From: Gemmatimonadaceae bacterium
GTDB lineage: Bacteria > Gemmatimonadota > Gemmatimonadetes > Gemmatimonadales > Gemmatimonadaceae
Direction of reading: 5' to 3'
Assembly: GCA_019637445.1 (NCBI GenBank)
Contig: JAHBVS010000001.1
Coordinates: 1,089,586 to 1,153,585, forward strand
Length of the DNA: 64,000 nt
A program made the translations under genes and the position numbers. The first letter of the stretch is position 1. Every line of letters starts with the position of its first letter. This document shows, piece after piece, positions 35,178 through 43,179 of the stretch. Under the pieces are notes generated by a model. It made no database searches. It worked only from the letters and a program-made list of their open reading frames with translations, and was not told where the DNA came from.

Positions 35178-35939
35178 ATGGCACTCCCGGCACTCCAGCT
35201 CCTCCGCCAGCAACTCGCCGCCGTCGTCGCCGGCACGCCGAGCACGACGCCCGGCCTGCCTACCGGCTTTGCCGGACTCGACGCCATGCTCCCCGGCGGC
35301 GGGCTCCCGCGCGGACGCCTCACCGAACTGCTCGCCCCTGCCGGGCTCGGCAAGACCACGCTCGCCCGCTCGCTCGCCTCCACCACCCTGCTCGGCGGCA
35401 GCGCCGTGGCCTGGGTGGACGCCACCCGCACGCTCGACCCGCGCGACTGGATCAGCGTGGACCCCAGCGGCAGCGATGCGCTCTGGGTGGTGCGACCGGG
35501 TGAACCCGCACGCGCCGCCTGGTGCGCCGACCTGCTGTTGCGCACGGGCAGTTTCGCGCTGGTGGTGCTCGATGGCGCGCCGGTGCTGCCGCGCAATGTC
35601 GGCGTGCGTCTCGCCCAGCTCGCCCGCGATGCCGATGCCGCGCTGCTCCTGCTCGGTGAGGGCACGCGCGCCTCGGAGATCGGCGGCGCCCTACGCCTCG
35701 TGCTCAAGCGCCGCGACGCCCGCACCGTGCTCGCGACCATCGAGAAGGGCGGGCCCCATTCACACGTTCCCTTGCCCTTGGAGGTCGGTCGTGGCCACGA
35801 CATCGCGCGTCGCCTGTGTGCGCATCCCGCGGTTCCCGATCGGCGCGGCGTGGCTCGCGCGGGGGCGCGGTCCGGCACCACGCGGATCGGCACCGTTCGC
35901 GGACGGCGCGCGGCGCAGCCCAGTTATCCGCGACGCTGA
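35178..35939 (+). CDS. imuA: ImuA, RecA-like mutasome accessory protein
   Basis: ImuA is the RecA/SulA-like member of the ImuA-ImuB-DnaE2 mutagenic translesion-synthesis system. The 253-residue product has the usual N-terminus (GLPTGFAGLDAMLPGGGLPRG), a P-loop-like APAGLGKTTLARSLA and a Walker B-like strand FALVVLDGAPVL. The last 50 residues are rich in Arg and lie in the 149-bp stretch where imuB is read in another frame. No ribosome site precedes ATG 35178, which lies right behind the direct-repeat operator candidate. Confidence 0.85.
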   Translation: MALPALQLLRQQLAAVVAGTPSTTPGLPTGFAGLDAMLPGGGLPRGRLTELLAPAGLGKTTLARSLASTTLLGGSAVAWVDATRTLDPRDWISVDPSGSDALWVVRPGEPARAAWCADLLLRTGSFALVVLDGAPVLPRNVGVRLAQLARDADAALLLLGEGTRASEIGGALRLVLKRRDARTVLATIEKGGPHSHVPLPLEVGRGHDIARRLCAHPAVPDRRGVARAGARSGTTRIGTVRGRRAAQPSYPRR

Positions 35940-37536
35940 TCGGGTGGCGGGCGCGCGTGGGGACGCGGCCGCTGCGATGCCGTCCGCCACGCCATCCGCC
36001 GCCGCGCCTGCGCACTGGGACACGCTGCCTATCGCGTTGGTGGAGAACGCCAAGCTGCGCGTGGTCACCGCCGCCGCCGCCCGCGCGGGCGTGCGCATGG
36101 GCGTGACCGTCGCACAGGGCAAGTCCAAGTGCGCGACCCTCGTGCTGCTCCCCTGGGACAACGCACTCATCTCCCGCGAGGTCGCCCGCGCCAGCGCCGC
36201 CTTCCTCGCCGCCTCGCCACAGGTGAGCCCGCTGCGCGACGCACCCGGCACCTGGTGGGTGGGCGCCGAGGGCTTCGAGGCCATCGGCGGCGAGCGCGCG
36301 TTGGCGATGGCGCTCTTTCAGCTCGCGCGCGTCTGGCATCCGCGCGCCCGCGTGGCCATCGCCGACACCTGCATCAGCGCGCACGCCGCCACCTGGAGCA
36401 CGCGCGCCGCGCAGGAGCCGGTGCACGTCGCACCCGGTGGCGATCGCGATTACCTCGCGCGCGTGCCGCTGGCGTTGGTGCCGATGGACGACGAGCTCCG
36501 CGAAGCACTCATCGCGCTCGGCCTGCGCACGGCCGGTGCCTTTGCCGCGCTCGATCCTTTGGAAGTCGAGCGCCGCTGGGGCCACGACGGGCTCAGCGCC
36601 TGGCGACTCGCCTGCGGCGACGATCCGCGCCGCGCCACACTTGCCCGCGCCGACGATCCGCGCGCGGTGGTGCACGAGTTGTCGTCGCCATCGCCGACGC
36701 TCGAGCCCGTGCTCTTCCTGCTGCGTGCCTCGCTGGACCGGCTCGTGCGCGCCCTCGCCGCCGACGGACTCGCCGCCGCCTGCATCACGATCACGCTCAC
36801 GCTCGACGACGGGCGCCGCGTGACGCGCGAGGTGCGACCCGCGCGGCCGATCGCCCGCGTGGTGCCGCTCTTCGAACGTTGCCGCGCCACGCTCGACACC
36901 TGGACGCTCGAGGCCGCCGTCGCCGCCGTCGAACTGCGCATCAGCGAGACCGCGCACTCGGCGGCCGAGCAGGGCGACCTGCTCGCGGCGGCGTGGCGTG
37001 ATCCGGCGGCCGCCGAGGCTGCGCTCGCGCGACTACGCGCCACGCTCGGCAACGGCAGCGTCGTGCGGCCCGTGGCGCGCGACTCACACGCGCCGGAGCG
37101 CGCCGGGGGTTGGGTCGATGTCGAGCAGGCCGCGCGTGCCGTGCCAACGGATGTGCTGCGTGCCGCACGCAACGGAAATGCCGGCATCAATGTGTATGGT
37201 GGCGGAACCAGCACCGGCGCGACCACCGGCGCCGGCATGCGCGGCGCACACGGCGGCCCTGCCACGACACGCGTCACGCCCGCCGCGCGTCTGCTCGAAC
37301 CACCCGAATCCGTCGCCGTCACCACCGACCGCCGCGGCACGCCACTCCAGCTCTACTGGCGCGGCCGTCGCCTCGCGCTGCAGCGCGCCGACGGTCCCGA
37401 GCGCCTCTCCGGCGCCTGGTGGCAGGCCGAGCCCTTCGCCCGCGAGTACTGGCGCTGCGAGAGCGACGAGCTCGGCCAGGACCTGTTGCTCTACCGCGAC
37501 CCCGCCGGTTGGCGGCTCCAGGGATGGTACGACTGA
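35791..37536 (+). CDS. imuB: ImuB, catalytically inactive Y-family polymerase homologue
   Basis: ImuB links DnaE2 to the sliding clamp during error-prone lesion bypass. The 581-residue product starts with RVACVRIPRFPIG, the ImuB form of the Y-polymerase N-terminus. Both acidic metal sites are missing: there is no DxD in the first strand and no SxDE motif in the palm, so it should not polymerise. Palm and finger-like parts (VTAAAARAGVRMGVTVAQ, ALGLRTAGAFAAL) and the C-terminal WWQAEPFAREYWRCE, YRDPAGWRLQGWYD match the family. GTG 35791 has GGAGG six bases upstream. It overlaps imuA by 149 bp and a convergent gene by 46 bp. Confidence 0.88.
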   Translation: MATTSRVACVRIPRFPIGAAWLARGRGPAPRGSAPFADGARRSPVIRDADRVAGARGDAAAAMPSATPSAAAPAHWDTLPIALVENAKLRVVTAAAARAGVRMGVTVAQGKSKCATLVLLPWDNALISREVARASAAFLAASPQVSPLRDAPGTWWVGAEGFEAIGGERALAMALFQLARVWHPRARVAIADTCISAHAATWSTRAAQEPVHVAPGGDRDYLARVPLALVPMDDELREALIALGLRTAGAFAALDPLEVERRWGHDGLSAWRLACGDDPRRATLARADDPRAVVHELSSPSPTLEPVLFLLRASLDRLVRALAADGLAAACITITLTLDDGRRVTREVRPARPIARVVPLFERCRATLDTWTLEAAVAAVELRISETAHSAAEQGDLLAAAWRDPAAAEAALARLRATLGNGSVVRPVARDSHAPERAGGWVDVEQAARAVPTDVLRAARNGNAGINVYGGGTSTGATTGAGMRGAHGGPATTRVTPAARLLEPPESVAVTTDRRGTPLQLYWRGRRLALQRADGPERLSGAWWQAEPFAREYWRCESDELGQDLLLYRDPAGWRLQGWYD

Positions 37537-38462
37537 GCCGCCACCGCCTCGATGTGCCGGTGGTCGGTGCCGCAGCAGCCGCCGAGGATCGTGCACCAGG
37601 GCATCACCGCGCGCAGCGCCGCGTAGTCGGCGCCGAACTCGTCGGGATTGCCGGCGTCGAGCTCCGTCGCGGCGTTCAGCTCGGCGTGGCTCTTCCGCGA
37701 GGCGTTCGCGCGCAGGCCGCGGATGCGCTCCCACACCGGCTGCTCGTCACTGAACAGATGCGCGAAGTGCGAGGGGTGCGCGCAGTTCACCATATAGTAG
37801 GCGGGATAGTTCTCGGTGGCCGCGTCCACCTCGGCGATCGCCTCGGCCAGCGACTGGCCCGTGGGCAAGCGCCCGTCGGTCTCCACCGTGAACGAGAGCA
37901 CCACCGGCATCCCCACCCCACGCGCCGCGCGCGCGATGCCGATCGCCTCGGCCGTGTAGTTGAGCGTCACGGCGGTCACGAGATCGGCCACGGTGGACGC
38001 GAAGGTCGTGATCTGCGGACGATGATACCGCTCGGCGTCCTCGGCGCTCATCAGTTGGTCGGGCACGTAGCCATCGCCGCGCGGTCCGATGTTGCCGCTG
38101 ATCACTACCGGGGTCTCGGCCGTGCCGATGTCGGCGCGAATCACCTCGAGCATCGTGATGGCCCGGCGATTCACGTCCACGAGGTCGGCGGCCGTATAGC
38201 CGATCCGTCGGCCCCAATCGCTGCTCGCACGCCAGGTGGCGCTCTCGAGGATCAGTCCCGTGCGATGCTGCACCGCGATGTCCGCGTAACGGCGGAAGTA
38301 GCGTTGCAGGGCCAGCGTGCCCTCGGCGTCGCGCAGCAAGTGGAAGGCGGCGAACTCCGGCAACTCGAGCCCATCGTGATAGATGAGCGTCGTCTCCAGC
38401 CCGCCGTCGGTGAGGAACGGAATCGGCGCGAGCTGCGGCAGGGAGTGGCGATAGCGGGCCAT
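37491..38462 (-). CDS. Homocysteine S-methyltransferase (MmuM-like)
   Basis: This zinc-dependent methyltransferase probably uses S-methylmethionine or a related donor to make methionine from homocysteine. The 323-residue product has FLTDGGLETTLIYHDGLELP and the three zinc Cys, one in MVNCAHPSHF and two in LGGCCGTDHRHIEAV. It stands alone on the minus strand between imuB and dnaE2 and its 3' end overlaps that of imuB by 46 bp. ATG 38462 has GGAG about eight bases upstream. Nothing in its neighbourhood belongs to methionine metabolism, so it looks inserted into the mutasome locus. Confidence 0.92.
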   Translation of the reverse strand: MARYRHSLPQLAPIPFLTDGGLETTLIYHDGLELPEFAAFHLLRDAEGTLALQRYFRRYADIAVQHRTGLILESATWRASSDWGRRIGYTAADLVDVNRRAITMLEVIRADIGTAETPVVISGNIGPRGDGYVPDQLMSAEDAERYHRPQITTFASTVADLVTAVTLNYTAEAIGIARAARGVGMPVVLSFTVETDGRLPTGQSLAEAIAEVDAATENYPAYYMVNCAHPSHFAHLFSDEQPVWERIRGLRANASRKSHAELNAATELDAGNPDEFGADYAALRAVMPWCTILGGCCGTDHRHIEAVAAQSYHPWSRQPAGSR

Positions 38463-38602
38463 CGGAGGCTCCGGGTGCAGGGGACTGTTCGCCTCGCGCC
38501 GACGGGAGTGTCGGGCGAGGGACCTAGCGCGGGGTCCAGCGGCGGGAATCCCGTGCGAGGTCCTGTTGCCCCGAGATGCGCGGCCCCCGCGGGAAACCCG
38601 AC

Positions 38603-41600
38603 ATGACGGGCTACGCTGAGCTGCATTGCCACTCCACGTTTTCCCTCTTGGATGGCGCCTCCGACCCCGAGCGGTTGGTCGAACGCGCCCTGACTCTGGG
38701 GATGCCGGCGTTGGCCCTCACCGACCACGACGACGTGGGCGGCGCGGTGCGCTTTGCCACGGCCACGCGAGAAGGCGGATTGGCAGGCATCCACGGCGCC
38801 GAGCTCACGGTGGATGTGCCGCTGCCGCGCGGGCTCGAGCGTCACGACGCGCCGATTCCCGGCCGCGTTCTTACTAATGAAGGCAGTCCGAAACTGCGCA
38901 CGCACATTGTGCTGCTGTGTGAGTCGCGCGAAGGCTGGGGCAACCTCTGCACGTTGATCACGCGCGCGCGGTTGGACCATCCGCGCGGTGAGCCGCGCGT
39001 CACGTTGGAGCAGCTCGCCGCGCACACCAGCGGACTGTATGCGCTGAGTGGTTGTCCACGTGGCTGGGTCCCGCAGTTGCTCGCGCTCTCCACCGGCGGT
39101 GTGATGAGCGATGGCACGCGCGTGGGCGCCGCCTGCTCCGAGGCCGATGCTTCACGGCTCGCCCACGAGGCCGCGGGGCAGCTGTCGGAGATGTTCGGCA
39201 AGCGGCTGGCCATCGAGTGCTGGGATCACGCGCTGCCGGAGGAGCGCGCGCTGGTTACCCGCCTGCTACCGATGGCGCGTGCGCTGGACCTGCCATGGGT
39301 TGTCACCAACGACGTGCACTACGCCCTGCCGACCGGTCGTATCGGCCACGACGTGCTCTCGGCGCTGCGGCACGGCGCCACGCTGGACGAAATGGGCACG
39401 CGCCTGCGGCCCAACGGCGAGTGGTATCTCAAGGGTCACGCGCAGTTGGCCAAGCGCTGGCAGGGTCTCGAGCAGGGATTGGCCGAGTCGCTGCGCATCG
39501 CCGAGCGCTGTGCGTTTCGGCTGGAGGCACTCAAGCCCAAGCTGCCGCGCTTTCCGTTGCCACCCGGTGTGAGCGAGGACGAATACCTCGCGCGATTGGT
39601 GGAAGACGGCGCGCAGGAGCGTTGGGGTTGGCGCCGCACGGCGCGACACGACAAGCAACTGGAACACGAGCTCACCTTGATCGCCAGGCTGGGCTTGAGC
39701 GGCTACTTCCTGATTGTCTGGGACATCGTGCGCTTCGCGCGGCGCGAGGGGATCCTCTGCCAAGGCCGCGGCTCGGCGGCCAACAGCGCTGTGTGCTATT
39801 GCCTCGGCATCACGGCGGTGGATCCGATCAAGCTGGAGCTGTTGTTCGAGCGCTTCCTCAGCGAGGAACGCGCCGAGGCGCCGGATATTGATATCGATTT
39901 TGCGCACCGCGAGCGTGAGCGCGTGCTGCAGTACGTGTACCAGCGGTATGGCCGCGAGCACGCGGCGATGGTCTGCGAGCACATCACTTGGCGCGGGCGC
40001 AGTGCCGTGCGGGATGCGGCGCGGGTGTTGGGCTTCTCGGCGGAGCAGGCGGGATTGCTGGCGAGCTTCAGTGACCGGTTCTCGGCACGCAACACCGCTG
40101 CCGCACTGAGGACGGAAGACGGAGGACGAAGGACGGAGGATGGGGCTGCGGCGAGCGGTGCCGTTGCGGATCCCTTTGCGCCCGAGCGCGCGGATGCGAT
40201 GGGTCCCGCGAACTACAACAAGCGCGCGTTGCGGGATGCGCCACAGCAGCTGGAGGCCAAGGCGCAGAAGGCGGGCGCCAAGGAGATTGCCGCGCTCGCC
40301 AACCAGCGCGAGACTGGCCCGCGCGAGACCAACCCCCGCGACGTCGCCACGCGCCGCAACCAGCGCCCTGTGCGCCCAGCGACACTCGTTGACGCGGTGT
40401 CGAGCGACCTCGTCGTCGGCACGCACGCGAGCAACCTGATCAAGGCCTCGCGCGAGGAGCACCGGAAGCTGCGCGCCGTGCGCACGGGCGCGCCGGAGAG
40501 CGTACGGCGCGAAGGAAGTGGAGGGGAGGCCACGAGGGCTCCCGAAGCGAAGCGGCCGCAGGACCGCACCGCGGTCCGAGAGCTTCGCGCAGGGAGTCCT
40601 CGTGGCCGACCCGACCCCACACCGAAGCCAGAACCAACGCTTCTAGAACGCGCAGGCCTCGACAGCAGCGACCCACGCGTCCAGAAGCTCGCAGACATCG
40701 TCGAGCAGCTCGACGCCGCCCCGCGACACCGCGGGATTCACGTCGGCGGCTTCGTCCTCACGGAGGAGCCGCTGCGCACCGTCGTGCCCATCGAACCCGC
40801 GAGCATGGAGGACCGCACCGTCATCCAGTGGGAGAAGGACGACCTCGACCCGGTTGGCTTGGTGAAGATCGACCTCCTCGGCCTCGGCATGCTCACCGTC
40901 GTGCAGGACTGCCTCGCCTACATCCGGCGCACACGCGGCGTCACGCTCGACCTCGGCCAACTCGACTGCGCCGACCAAGCCGTGTACGACGATCTCTGCA
41001 AGGCCGACACGGTCGGTGTGTTCCAGGTCGAGAGCCGCGCGCAGATGAACACCCTGCCGCGCCTCAAGCCGCGCTGCTTCTACGATCTCGTGGTCGAGGT
41101 CGCGCTCATCCGCCCCGGCCCCATCCAGGGCGAGATGGTGCATCCGTACTTGCGACGGAAAGCGGGAGTGGAAGAAGTCACCTACCCACACCCATCACTC
41201 GAGCCCATCCTCAAGCGCACGCTGGGCGTGCCGCTGTTCCAAGAGCAGGGCATGCAGGTCGCGATTGCCGCCGCCGGCTTCACCGCCGGCGAGGCCGACC
41301 TCCTGCGCAAGGCGATGGGCCACAAGCGCAGCCGTGAACGCATGGCGGATATCTGCCAAAGGATGATCGACGGCATGCGCGCGAACGGCATCCCTGAGGA
41401 CATCGCACTCCGGATCTATAACCAGATCAACGCATTCGCCGACTACGGCTTTCCCGAAAGTCACGCCGCGAGTTTCGCGCTGATCGTCTACGCCAGCGCC
41501 TACCTGCGGCACTACTACGCCCCCGAGTTCCTCTGCGCGATGCTCAACGCGCAGCCGATGGGCTTTTACGCACCTGGGACATTGATCGAGGACGCCCGCC

Positions 41601-42475
41601 GCCACGGCGTGCGCGTGCGCCCCGTGGACATCACGCGCAGCGGATGGGACCACACGCTGGAGCCTGGCGAAGGCCGCAACGCCGCGCCGGTGGTACGACT
41701 CGGCATCCGTTCTGTGTTGGGACTCGGCAGCCAAGCCAAGGCAAAGATCGAAGCCGCACGGAAGACGGAGGACGAAGGACGGAGGACGGAAGCACCTGCC
41801 GTGCCTCCTTCGTCCTTCGTCCTCCGTCCTCCGTCATTCAGTTCCATTGCCGACTTCGTCACCCGCACCAACCTCGACCGCCGCTCCCTCCGCGCCCTCG
41901 CCGAATCCGGCGCCTTCGACGCCTTCGTCCAGGACGAACCCCCAAACCGAAGACGCCGCGTGGCCCTCTGGCGCGTGCTCGAAGCCGAACGCGAAGCCCC
42001 CGGCCCCCTCGCGCTGTTCCCCGAATCCCCCGTCCCCCAAGTCCTCCCCGGCTTCTCCGCCCCCGAGCTCACCGAAGCCGACTACCGCCTCACCGGCCTT
42101 TCATTGAACGGCCACCCCATGCGCCACGTCCGCGCCCTGCTCATCCCCAACGGCGTGCGTACCGCCCGCGAGATCCACACGATGCAGGACGGCGATCCCA
42201 TCGCCCACGCGGGGCTCGTCATCTGCCGCCAGCGCCCAGGCACCGCCAAGGGCTTCGTGTTCCTCACGCTTGAGGACGAGACCGGCACCATCAACGTGGT
42301 CGTCACGCCGCAGCGATTCGAGGAACAGGCGATGCTCATTTCGCGCACACCACTGCTGCTCGTGCGGGGCACGCTGCAGGTGGAGAGCGGGGTCTACAAC
42401 ATCCGCGCGCAGAGCTTTGCCGCGCTCAAGGCCGGCGCGGGCGAGGATGCGGTGCGGGGACATAACTACAGATGA
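38603..42475 (+). CDS. dnaE2: DnaE2, error-prone DNA polymerase III alpha subunit, with in-frame insertions
   Basis: DnaE2 is the C-family polymerase of the ImuA-ImuB mutasome. The PHP domain begins LHCHSTFSLLDGASDPERL. Catalytic Asp are in PDIDIDF (about 428-430) and VKIDLLGL (about 756), and the C-terminal OB fold is present. At 1,290 residues it is about 200 longer than usual. One low-complexity insertion (about 497-675) replaces the short link between the FSARNT segment and LLERAGLDSS and contains a heptamer array and an 80-bp inverted repeat. A second, about 27 residues near 1051-1078, is another heptamer element. Both keep the frame, so the enzyme may still work. ATG 38603 begins the PHP domain. 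Confidence 0.92.
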   Translation: MTGYAELHCHSTFSLLDGASDPERLVERALTLGMPALALTDHDDVGGAVRFATATREGGLAGIHGAELTVDVPLPRGLERHDAPIPGRVLTNEGSPKLRTHIVLLCESREGWGNLCTLITRARLDHPRGEPRVTLEQLAAHTSGLYALSGCPRGWVPQLLALSTGGVMSDGTRVGAACSEADASRLAHEAAGQLSEMFGKRLAIECWDHALPEERALVTRLLPMARALDLPWVVTNDVHYALPTGRIGHDVLSALRHGATLDEMGTRLRPNGEWYLKGHAQLAKRWQGLEQGLAESLRIAERCAFRLEALKPKLPRFPLPPGVSEDEYLARLVEDGAQERWGWRRTARHDKQLEHELTLIARLGLSGYFLIVWDIVRFARREGILCQGRGSAANSAVCYCLGITAVDPIKLELLFERFLSEERAEAPDIDIDFAHRERERVLQYVYQRYGREHAAMVCEHITWRGRSAVRDAARVLGFSAEQAGLLASFSDRFSARNTAAALRTEDGGRRTEDGAAASGAVADPFAPERADAMGPANYNKRALRDAPQQLEAKAQKAGAKEIAALANQRETGPRETNPRDVATRRNQRPVRPATLVDAVSSDLVVGTHASNLIKASREEHRKLRAVRTGAPESVRREGSGGEATRAPEAKRPQDRTAVRELRAGSPRGRPDPTPKPEPTLLERAGLDSSDPRVQKLADIVEQLDAAPRHRGIHVGGFVLTEEPLRTVVPIEPASMEDRTVIQWEKDDLDPVGLVKIDLLGLGMLTVVQDCLAYIRRTRGVTLDLGQLDCADQAVYDDLCKADTVGVFQVESRAQMNTLPRLKPRCFYDLVVEVALIRPGPIQGEMVHPYLRRKAGVEEVTYPHPSLEPILKRTLGVPLFQEQGMQVAIAAAGFTAGEADLLRKAMGHKRSRERMADICQRMIDGMRANGIPEDIALRIYNQINAFADYGFPESHAASFALIVYASAYLRHYYAPEFLCAMLNAQPMGFYAPGTLIEDARRHGVRVRPVDITRSGWDHTLEPGEGRNAAPVVRLGIRSVLGLGSQAKAKIEAARKTEDEGRRTEAPAVPPSSFVLRPPSFSSIADFVTRTNLDRRSLRALAESGAFDAFVQDEPPNRRRRVALWRVLEAEREAPGPLALFPESPVPQVLPGFSAPELTEADYRLTGLSLNGHPMRHVRALLIPNGVRTAREIHTMQDGDPIAHAGLVICRQRPGTAKGFVFLTLEDETGTINVVVTPQRFEEQAMLISRTPLLLVRGTLQVESGVYNIRAQSFAALKAGAGEDAVRGHNYR
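40111..40145 (+). repeat. GACGRAG heptamer array (single arm) inside dnaE2
   Basis: Five consecutive 7-bp units follow the pattern GACGGAA/GACGGAG/GACGAAG, the last one degenerate. They encode RTEDGGRRTEDG at the start of the large dnaE2 insertion. No inverted partner follows in the next few hundred bases. Confidence 0.8.
40528..40607. repeat. 80-bp imperfect palindromic element inside dnaE2
   Basis: The outer arms GGCCACGAGG (40528-40537) and CCTCGTGGCC (40598-40607) are exact complements. Inside them CTCCC/GGGAG, GCGAAGC/GCTTCGC and GGACCGC/GCGGTCC also pair, with small internal loops. The whole element can fold into one long hairpin and is translated in frame as part of the polymerase linker (ATRAPEAKRPQDRTAVRELR and beyond). 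Confidence 0.75.
41757..41835. repeat. Inverted pair of heptamer arrays with hairpin core inside dnaE2
   Basis: The left arm (41757-41791) has five GACGRAG-type units, the first degenerate. The core is GCAC-CTGCC-GTGC (41792-41804), a small perfect stem. The right arm (41808-41835) has four units in the opposite orientation. The element adds about 27 residues between the KIEAAR helix and the IADFVTRTNLDRR segment of DnaE2, which are adjacent in ordinary family members. Confidence 0.8.
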
Positions 42476-42555
42476 AGATGGAGGACGTGGGTGAAAGGAG
42501 TGCGCAGCCGCGAGTTCGCAGTTCATCTTTCGTCCTCCATCCTTCATCATTCACC
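42471..42555. repeat. Inverted heptamer element spanning dnaE2 stop and next gene leader
   Basis: GATGAAG/GATGGAG/GACG-type units at 42471-42490 face inverted units at 42524-42551. The dnaE2 stop TGA (42473-42475) lies in the left arm and the ATG of the next gene (42556) follows the right arm directly. The right end, ATCATTCA, matches the end of the element at 41835 (GTCATTCA). The centre has a weaker TGCG/CGCA stem. Confidence 0.7.
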
Positions 42556-43179
42556 ATGCACATCGCCGTCTTCGGAGCCACCGGCCGCGTCGGCGGCCGA
42601 TTCGTCGAGTACGCCCTAGCCGCGGGCCACACGATCCGCGCCTTGGTGCGCGACATATCCAAGATCGACCCACGCCCCGGCCTTGAGGTCGTGCAAGGCG
42701 ACGTGCTCACCGTCGATGACGTCGAGCGAACGATCGCCGGTACCGATGCCGTCGTGTCCGGCCTCGGCGGTGCCGGCGTCGAGGCGCCGGGAGATGCGCA
42801 ATCGCAAGGCATGCGCAACATCGTCGCCGCGATGACGAAGCTCGGCATCAAGCGCGTGCTCGGTGTCGCGGGGGGCGGAATCCTCGATTCCGCGAAGGGC
42901 GGCCTGCGCCACGACCAGCCCGGCTTCCCCGCCCTCTACCGCGCCGTGAGTGGCAAGCACGAAGAAGCCTGGCGCGCGATGCAGGCCAGCGACCTCGACT
43001 GGACGATGATCGCCACCGGCGACATCGTCGCCGGCGCGCGCAGCGGTGAATACCGCACGCTGGAGAACAGGCTCCCGGAGAAAGCCACGCAGATCAGCGT
43101 CGAGGACGTCGCCGATTTCCTGCTCAAGGCACTCACGCAGGGCCTGCACCTCCGCACACGGGTCGGCGCAGGCTACTGA
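42556..43179 (+). CDS. NAD(P)-binding Rossmann protein (atypical SDR, NmrA/BVR-B-like)
   Basis: This is a 207-residue atypical SDR of the NmrA/biliverdin reductase B-like group with the cofactor motif IAVFGATGRVGGRFVEYAL, then VVQGDVLTVDDVERTIAGTDAVVSGLG and WTMIATGDIVAGARSG. The group includes redox sensors and quinone or flavin reductases; the substrate is not clear. The frame runs further upstream, but that part is only the translated heptamer repeat, so ATG 42556 is used. No ribosome site precedes it, because the repeat element occupies the leader. Confidence 0.85.
   Translation: MHIAVFGATGRVGGRFVEYALAAGHTIRALVRDISKIDPRPGLEVVQGDVLTVDDVERTIAGTDAVVSGLGGAGVEAPGDAQSQGMRNIVAAMTKLGIKRVLGVAGGGILDSAKGGLRHDQPGFPALYRAVSGKHEEAWRAMQASDLDWTMIATGDIVAGARSGEYRTLENRLPEKATQISVEDVADFLLKALTQGLHLRTRVGAGY

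Follow-up and report, generated by a model that had tools for sequence, protein, structure and literature searches.

Rickettsia palindromic elements (RPEs; Ogata 2000, 2002) are, as the cited accounts describe them, palindromes of about 100–150 bp that occur in frame within conserved protein genes (PMC2229807, PMC10969869), and in R. conorii 44 RPE insertions are found in many unrelated genes (PMC10969869). REP sequences and REPINs are short hairpins arranged as inverted doublets and mobilized by RAYTs (PMC3116915, PMC3733652). In nematomorph mitochondria, perfect inverted repeats are likewise kept in translated genes (PMC6649704). The window analysed here, a stretch of 64,000 nt from a Gemmatimonadaceae genome of 3.35 Mb (G000, C1:1089586–1153585), carries in its dnaE2 gene an 88-nt palindrome, here called element B, which resembles RPEs and the coding palindromes of Wolbachia in being a long hairpin placed in frame in a conserved protein gene and translated with it. 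The relatives of G000 found by sequence are Gemmatimonadota metagenome-assembled genomes (MAGs), mostly of the Gemmatimonadaceae, and among open-licence papers nothing was found on palindromes in dnaE2 of this phylum.

The host gene encodes an error-prone DNA polymerase (dnaE2; 38576..42475, forward strand) of 1299 aa counted from the first ATG, with an alternative start possible at 38603. Its product scores 1224.9 bits against the NCBIfam error-prone polymerase model (cut-off 939) and contains PHP, Pol3-alpha, finger, HHH_6 and OB domains together with the active-site motif PDIDIDF. Its mutasome partner is an imuB-like gene on the same strand (35815..37536; 573 aa, IMS_C). A homocysteine S-methyltransferase gene (37494–38462) lies between the two on the opposite strand, so that the mutasome genes do not form a single operon in this genome. 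A search for an intrinsic terminator in 40000–41000 found none.

The earlier note had claimed that about 175 extra residues were inserted in frame in this polymerase. The linker concerned is certainly long: linker 1 (40064..40645, forward strand) is a variable segment of about 190 aa, at DnaE2 residues ~487–666 in the alignment, where the DnaE of Taq has seven residues. It is, however, mostly inherited, since it aligns for the greater part with the linkers of at least seven members of the same genus (G003, G005, G006, G008, G010, G012 and G016), and this rules out a single foreign insertion as the origin of the whole. The motifs DPFAPERADAMGPANYxKRAL and ATLVDAVSSDLxVGTHASxLIK are found across these seven genomes, and the parts conserved in the genus include DPFAPERADAMGPANY and DAVSSDLVVGTHAS; four further congeners (G004, G011, G013 and G014) have almost none of linker 1. 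Judging from the alignment, the palindrome at the 3′ end and the heptamers at the 5′ end are smaller additions to an inherited linker. A predicted structure model of the region was too poor for use (mean pLDDT 44.7).

Element B (40524..40611, forward strand) lies in the sense orientation, is read in the frame RPQDRTAVRE, and scores 84.1 bits with the covariance model R1. The 80-bp inverted repeat first reported in this linker was confirmed: its arms (40523–40553 and 40582–40612) are 31 nt long, 81% complementary and separated by 28 nt, and their score of 16 was matched by none of 150 codon shuffles of 40090–40640 (mean 8.99, sd 1.24, maximum 14), with a predicted fold of -74.6 kcal/mol (z-score -8.8). 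The visible feet of the stem, where REPINs have a GTAG/CGTC tag, are GG..CC, and the tip (40554..40583, forward strand) reads GGCCGCA-GGACCGC-ACC-GCGGTCC-GAGA-GC. This tip, GGCCGCAGGA...TCCGAGAGC, changes hardly at all from genus to genus or from gene to gene, the unpaired GGCCGCA and GAGA included, whereas the long stem varies between copies and yet remains complementary. The palindrome is found again at the same place in linker 1 of G005, G010, G012 and G016, and in G010 and G016 the arms are very different and still pair. Over 32 copies the stem covariation score is 0.469, against 0.135 ± 0.011 in shuffled and 0.08–0.12 in slid alignments, and double-changed stem cells number 223 against 76 ± 7.5 in shuffles; the linker-1 copies alone (n = 13) give 0.489 against 0.138. 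Nothing in Rfam overlaps element B in the window at E ≤ 10, and the Rfam matches over the B copy of a relative (F6, L089) fall far below the gathering score. Membership of a described RNA family was rejected; the Rfam matches in the window are human and plant miRNA models lying on the heptamer palindrome, again far below gathering.

Within G000, element B is a single-copy sequence with no second copy in the genome. The earlier note had given many dispersed copies there as support for its reading, which is not what was found, and had named uniqueness of the 80-bp element in the genome as an outcome against its own reading, which is literally what G000 shows. A scan of 84,980 species genomes with the tip pattern returned 19 matching stretches, none of them in Rickettsia; 18 were taken as Gemmatimonadota (17 by name; the other, labelled just 'bacterium', has B in its dnaE2), and the remaining match, in Streptomyces, does not fold. 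No viral contig carries the element, and on this ground a phage origin was rejected. The covariance model matches 19 of 395 genomes of the phylum with one to eight matches each, and 18 of these genomes belong to one family. Several searches, merged by hand, yielded 41 strong copies from 18 genomes, of which 27 lie in dnaE2, one in imuB (in G114), five just upstream of imuB and two some 2.1 kb downstream from dnaE2, with the remaining six elsewhere. Thus 33 of the 41 copies, which are not phylogenetically independent, fall within dnaE2, imuB or the stretch directly upstream of imuB. This locus spans about 7 kb, in which 0.09 of 41 would be expected, and 17 of the 18 carriers have a copy at the mutasome locus. 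Intergenic copies are present in G016, G002, G312 and G325. Element B is an undescribed hairpin family, confined in the 84,980 species genomes to Gemmatimonadota apart from the non-folding Streptomyces match.

Copies in dnaE2 occupy three linkers and both orientations, and the core of the element is read as RPQDRAAVRE, as AAAGPRSGPRAS or, in antisense, as DALGPLRGPAAAS. Conservation on the nucleic acid rather than the peptide follows from these three readings and from the two orientations. The frame is open through B in every dnaE2 carrier that was read, and the element would be tolerated because DnaE2 linkers are variable and because its length is a multiple of three and it is free of stops in every frame used. 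Strong copies less than 450 nt apart are without exception (11 of 11) arranged as rc(B)-spacer-B. In G114 three DnaE2 linkers each hold such a doublet, with homologous spacers and the ends ggtgcgcGGTC...GACCaagcgg in common. No clean target-site duplication was seen at the copies, and no autonomous partner was found.

Three further observations concern copies outside the dnaE2 linkers. A B copy adjoins the map gene in the congeners G002 and G016 (L105 4148–4237, L106 2789–2878), a second conserved location outside the mutasome locus, with G002 judged by similar flanking DNA. Upstream of imuB, at L139 9462–9903 and L140 3867–4300, pieces of the B doublet stand in tandem beside the doublet (for instance caagcggtgacgcgcgccagc units and repeated half-elements), as if its ends expanded by slippage. 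Genus g27 harbours a longer-tipped relative of 110 nt, GGACCCATAGACGG...TAGGGTCC (GAATACTGGAGGACCC in L150), mostly intergenic and dispersed (L145 2366–2475, 3351–3460 and 4477–4586; L149 4308–4417; L150 3040–3148 and 4259–4364), and this repeat and element B probably form one superfamily.

The presence of B in linker 1 requires at least eight changes on a tree of 37 DnaE2 genes. Close relatives without the element, which the earlier note had named as support for its reading, do exist (G008, G003 and G081), and there are congeners that retain the rest of linker 1 and have no B. G081 is without 174 nt, exactly 58 codons, that are found in G325 (the flank is 96% identical), and it retains the 23-nt right arm of the missing B; G003 retains both of the stem feet present in G016. 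Two copies of G325 at different sites have the same arms, which disfavours the copying of arms from the target flank. Since the second G325 copy has the same arms, the arm belongs to the element, and the remnant in G081 is best read as the scar of a deletion. Loss of B would on this evidence be frequent, although several genera still carry the element. The reading frame of B in linker 1 differs between g1/g25 and g27/g40, so that more than one insertion into this linker is possible. An invariant tip and long retention in linker 1, in an otherwise deletion-prone region, suggest that B is under selection and not simply a neutral relic.

The second repeat family of this gene is of another kind. 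Cyanobacterial STRRs are dispersed 7-bp arrays, mostly intergenic. Heptamer repeats are also described as GGGNATC in Xanthomonas and Nostoc (PMC4692102) and as TAACTGA in Beggiatoaceae and Cyanobacteria (PMC4679880). The heptamer array already reported in linker 1 was confirmed at 40110..40143 (forward strand); it consists of GGACGRA units in frame and forms one arm with no inverted partner nearby. Arrays stand at the same place in linker 1 of G271 (GGACCGA) and G137 (GATGGTA). A complete heptamer palindrome, missed by the earlier note and stronger than the 80-bp one, lies in frame in linker 3 (41758..41834, forward strand; 29-nt arms, 93% complementary); at this site other repeats occur in G005, G016 and G003 and none in G010, G011 and G008. 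A degenerate palindrome of the heptamer type, read directly from the sequence, lies between the dnaE2 stop and the next gene (42472..42560, forward strand).

The dispersed palindromic family of G000 is in fact this heptamer family, which the earlier note had mentioned just in passing: arrays occur about 100 times as 14-mers, those sampled are intergenic and usually form inverted pairs at the ends of spacers, and the two in dnaE2 are the only clear intragenic ones among the places checked. In G000 spacers (L004–L031), inverted arrays often stand right after a stop and right before the next start, and a GGCGAGGCCGTACGGCCTCGCC hairpin sometimes lies between the bounding arrays. Dialects differ between the genomes compared, with little overlap among eight of them (GGACGRA is shared by G000 and G005, GGACCGA belongs to G271 and GATGGTA to G137). 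In dnaE2, 40 period-7 arrays were counted across 13 of 39 genomes and none in codon shuffles. Per kb they number 0.29 in dnaE2, 0.17 between genes and no more than 0.06 in other ORFs, the loci being a non-random sample in which at least 10 of the 18 'other ORF' arrays fall in dnaE2 fragments that the script had missed. The dnaE2 gene of G021 (L074) holds nine in-frame period-7 arrays in the dialects GAGTCAC, GGCATCA, GGCGCAA and ATTCCCG. The GGACGRA arrays are comparable to the heptamers of Xanthomonas and Nostoc, Beggiatoaceae and cyanobacteria in being dispersed, 7 bp long and mostly intergenic, but differ from them in often forming inverted pairs that give long hairpins, in having dialects peculiar to a genome and in standing in frame in dnaE2. 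The 80-bp palindrome and the heptamer array represent repeat families that are unrelated to each other; the heptamers form an independent family that is spread over the whole genome, differs in dialect from species to species and makes use of the same tolerant linkers.

Several explanations of element B have to be weighed. If B were a hairpin that regulates the mutasome mRNA in cis, selected for example for translational or attenuation control of dnaE2 and imuB, this would agree with the bias of 33 of 41 copies to this locus, with the very strong covariation and invariant tip, with a very stable RNA fold and with long retention on the DnaE2 tree. Selection for the fold of the mRNA should make G.U commoner than A.C on that strand, but there the ratio is unbiased (28:24, stem positions 2–24). 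On the strand of the element itself, G.T against A.C is 21:7 in sense, 9:1 in antisense and 11:0 in intergenic copies (positions 10–24), or 23:7 as distinct genus/position events (p = 0.005), counts that span a different stretch of the stem from the mRNA count, exclude the internal-loop region and come partly from related copies with a shared history. A wobble bias tied to the strand of the element instead of the host mRNA, in the antisense copies too, argues against mRNA regulation, as do the two orientations inside the same gene and the lack of B in the majority of DnaE2 genes examined; we consider this explanation quite unlikely. As supporting, not final, evidence, the wobble counts indicate that what folds is a single strand of the element, either DNA or RNA. 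A functional, strand-specific hairpin of this sort, formed by own-strand RNA or by single-stranded DNA and serving some system linked with the SOS mutasome locus in Gemmatimonadaceae, is a tentative, less likely possibility that would cover the retention of linker-1 copies across genera, the invariant tip, the turnover of the arms and the duplication into imuB and further linkers.

As the binding or processing site of a protein that acts on single-stranded DNA (a recombinase, a relaxase-like protein or a non-Y1 transposase), B would be an active mobile element preferring this locus. In favour are the wobble bias on its own strand, the REPIN-like inverted doublets, the homologous doublets at three linkers within the one G114 gene and the intergenic copies of four genomes. 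Copy number is nevertheless low, at one to eight per genome, a non-systematic look at neighbouring ORFs identified no transposase gene beside any copy, and most carriers lack Y1 transposases of the RAYT/IS200 type; PF01797 was found in two of 30 genomes and not in G000, G005, G010, G012, G016, G114 or G325. Membership of the RAYT/REPIN system was rejected on this last ground, and an active mobile element of this kind seems unlikely. Template switching during replication can both generate hairpins and repair them (PMC8794818), and a palindrome made and maintained purely in this way in a repeat-rich, disordered linker, with no identity as an element, might explain why arms differ between copies and yet match each other, and why DnaE2 linkers also accumulate unrelated heptamer palindromes. 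It is very improbable, given a 30-nt tip that is nearly the same, in its unpaired parts too, across genera and genes, and given the two G325 copies with shared arms. A functional linker peptide that happens to be palindromic at the DNA level could appeal to the linker parts conserved in the genus, and is scarcely credible when B is translated in three unrelated ways, which rules out a conserved peptide, and when copies exist between genes and are missing from congeners that keep the remaining linker.

On balance we favour, with some reserve, an old, locally duplicating, non-autonomous MITE-like palindromic element that has been inherited in the dnaE2 linkers and repeatedly lost in frame. Its unit would be the hairpin of about 88 nt, often present as an inverted rc(B)-spacer-B doublet of about 195–430 bp. 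The element would have entered the imuA-imuB-dnaE2 locus in an ancestor of several Gemmatimonadaceae genera and then been inherited, with new copies arising by local duplication, mostly over short distances within the locus (the dnaE2 linkers, imuB and the region upstream of imuB), and with repeated loss through in-frame deletion of the palindrome. The molecule under constraint would be a folded single strand of the element, single-stranded DNA or own-strand RNA, and not the host mRNA; B may have a single-strand intermediate or binding form, and template switching between the arms, together with selection for the fold, may keep the arms complementary.

Set beside the described systems, such an element is best filed among in-frame palindromic elements: it works like an RPE and yet is not one. 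The suggestion of an undescribed RPE-like class in a GC-rich bacterium stands as regards an in-frame palindrome in a DnaE2 linker that is absent from Rfam, and the difference of exactly 58 codons between G325 and G081 agrees with in-frame insertion, but the copies are concentrated at one locus and single in G000, and are not dispersed over many unrelated genes as RPEs are. At 88 nt, B is also shorter than typical RPEs, and unlike them it keeps its tip invariant while its arms change freely, and forms inverted doublets. These doublets are shared with REPINs, as is a fold predicted for REPs as single-stranded DNA or RNA, whereas REPs are extragenic, high in copy number and Y1-dependent, and B is largely intragenic and low in copy number. 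In the nematomorph palindromes both arms encode conserved protein (PMC6649704), while B lies in a dispensable linker and conserves its tip rather than its arms.

Most known in-frame palindromic elements come from Rickettsia and Wolbachia. Element B adds an independent example from a GC-rich phylum, in a dnaE2 gene that holds two unrelated kinds of palindromic repeat, both in frame. It offers a clean nucleic-acid signal, a strong bias to one locus and natural pairs of close relatives with and without the element, and strand-specific wobble counts can tell selection on the element from selection on the host mRNA. Through it, one can test how coding palindromes keep their arms matched, why repeats collect in the gene of a mutagenic polymerase, and how repeats invade and persist in a working gene.
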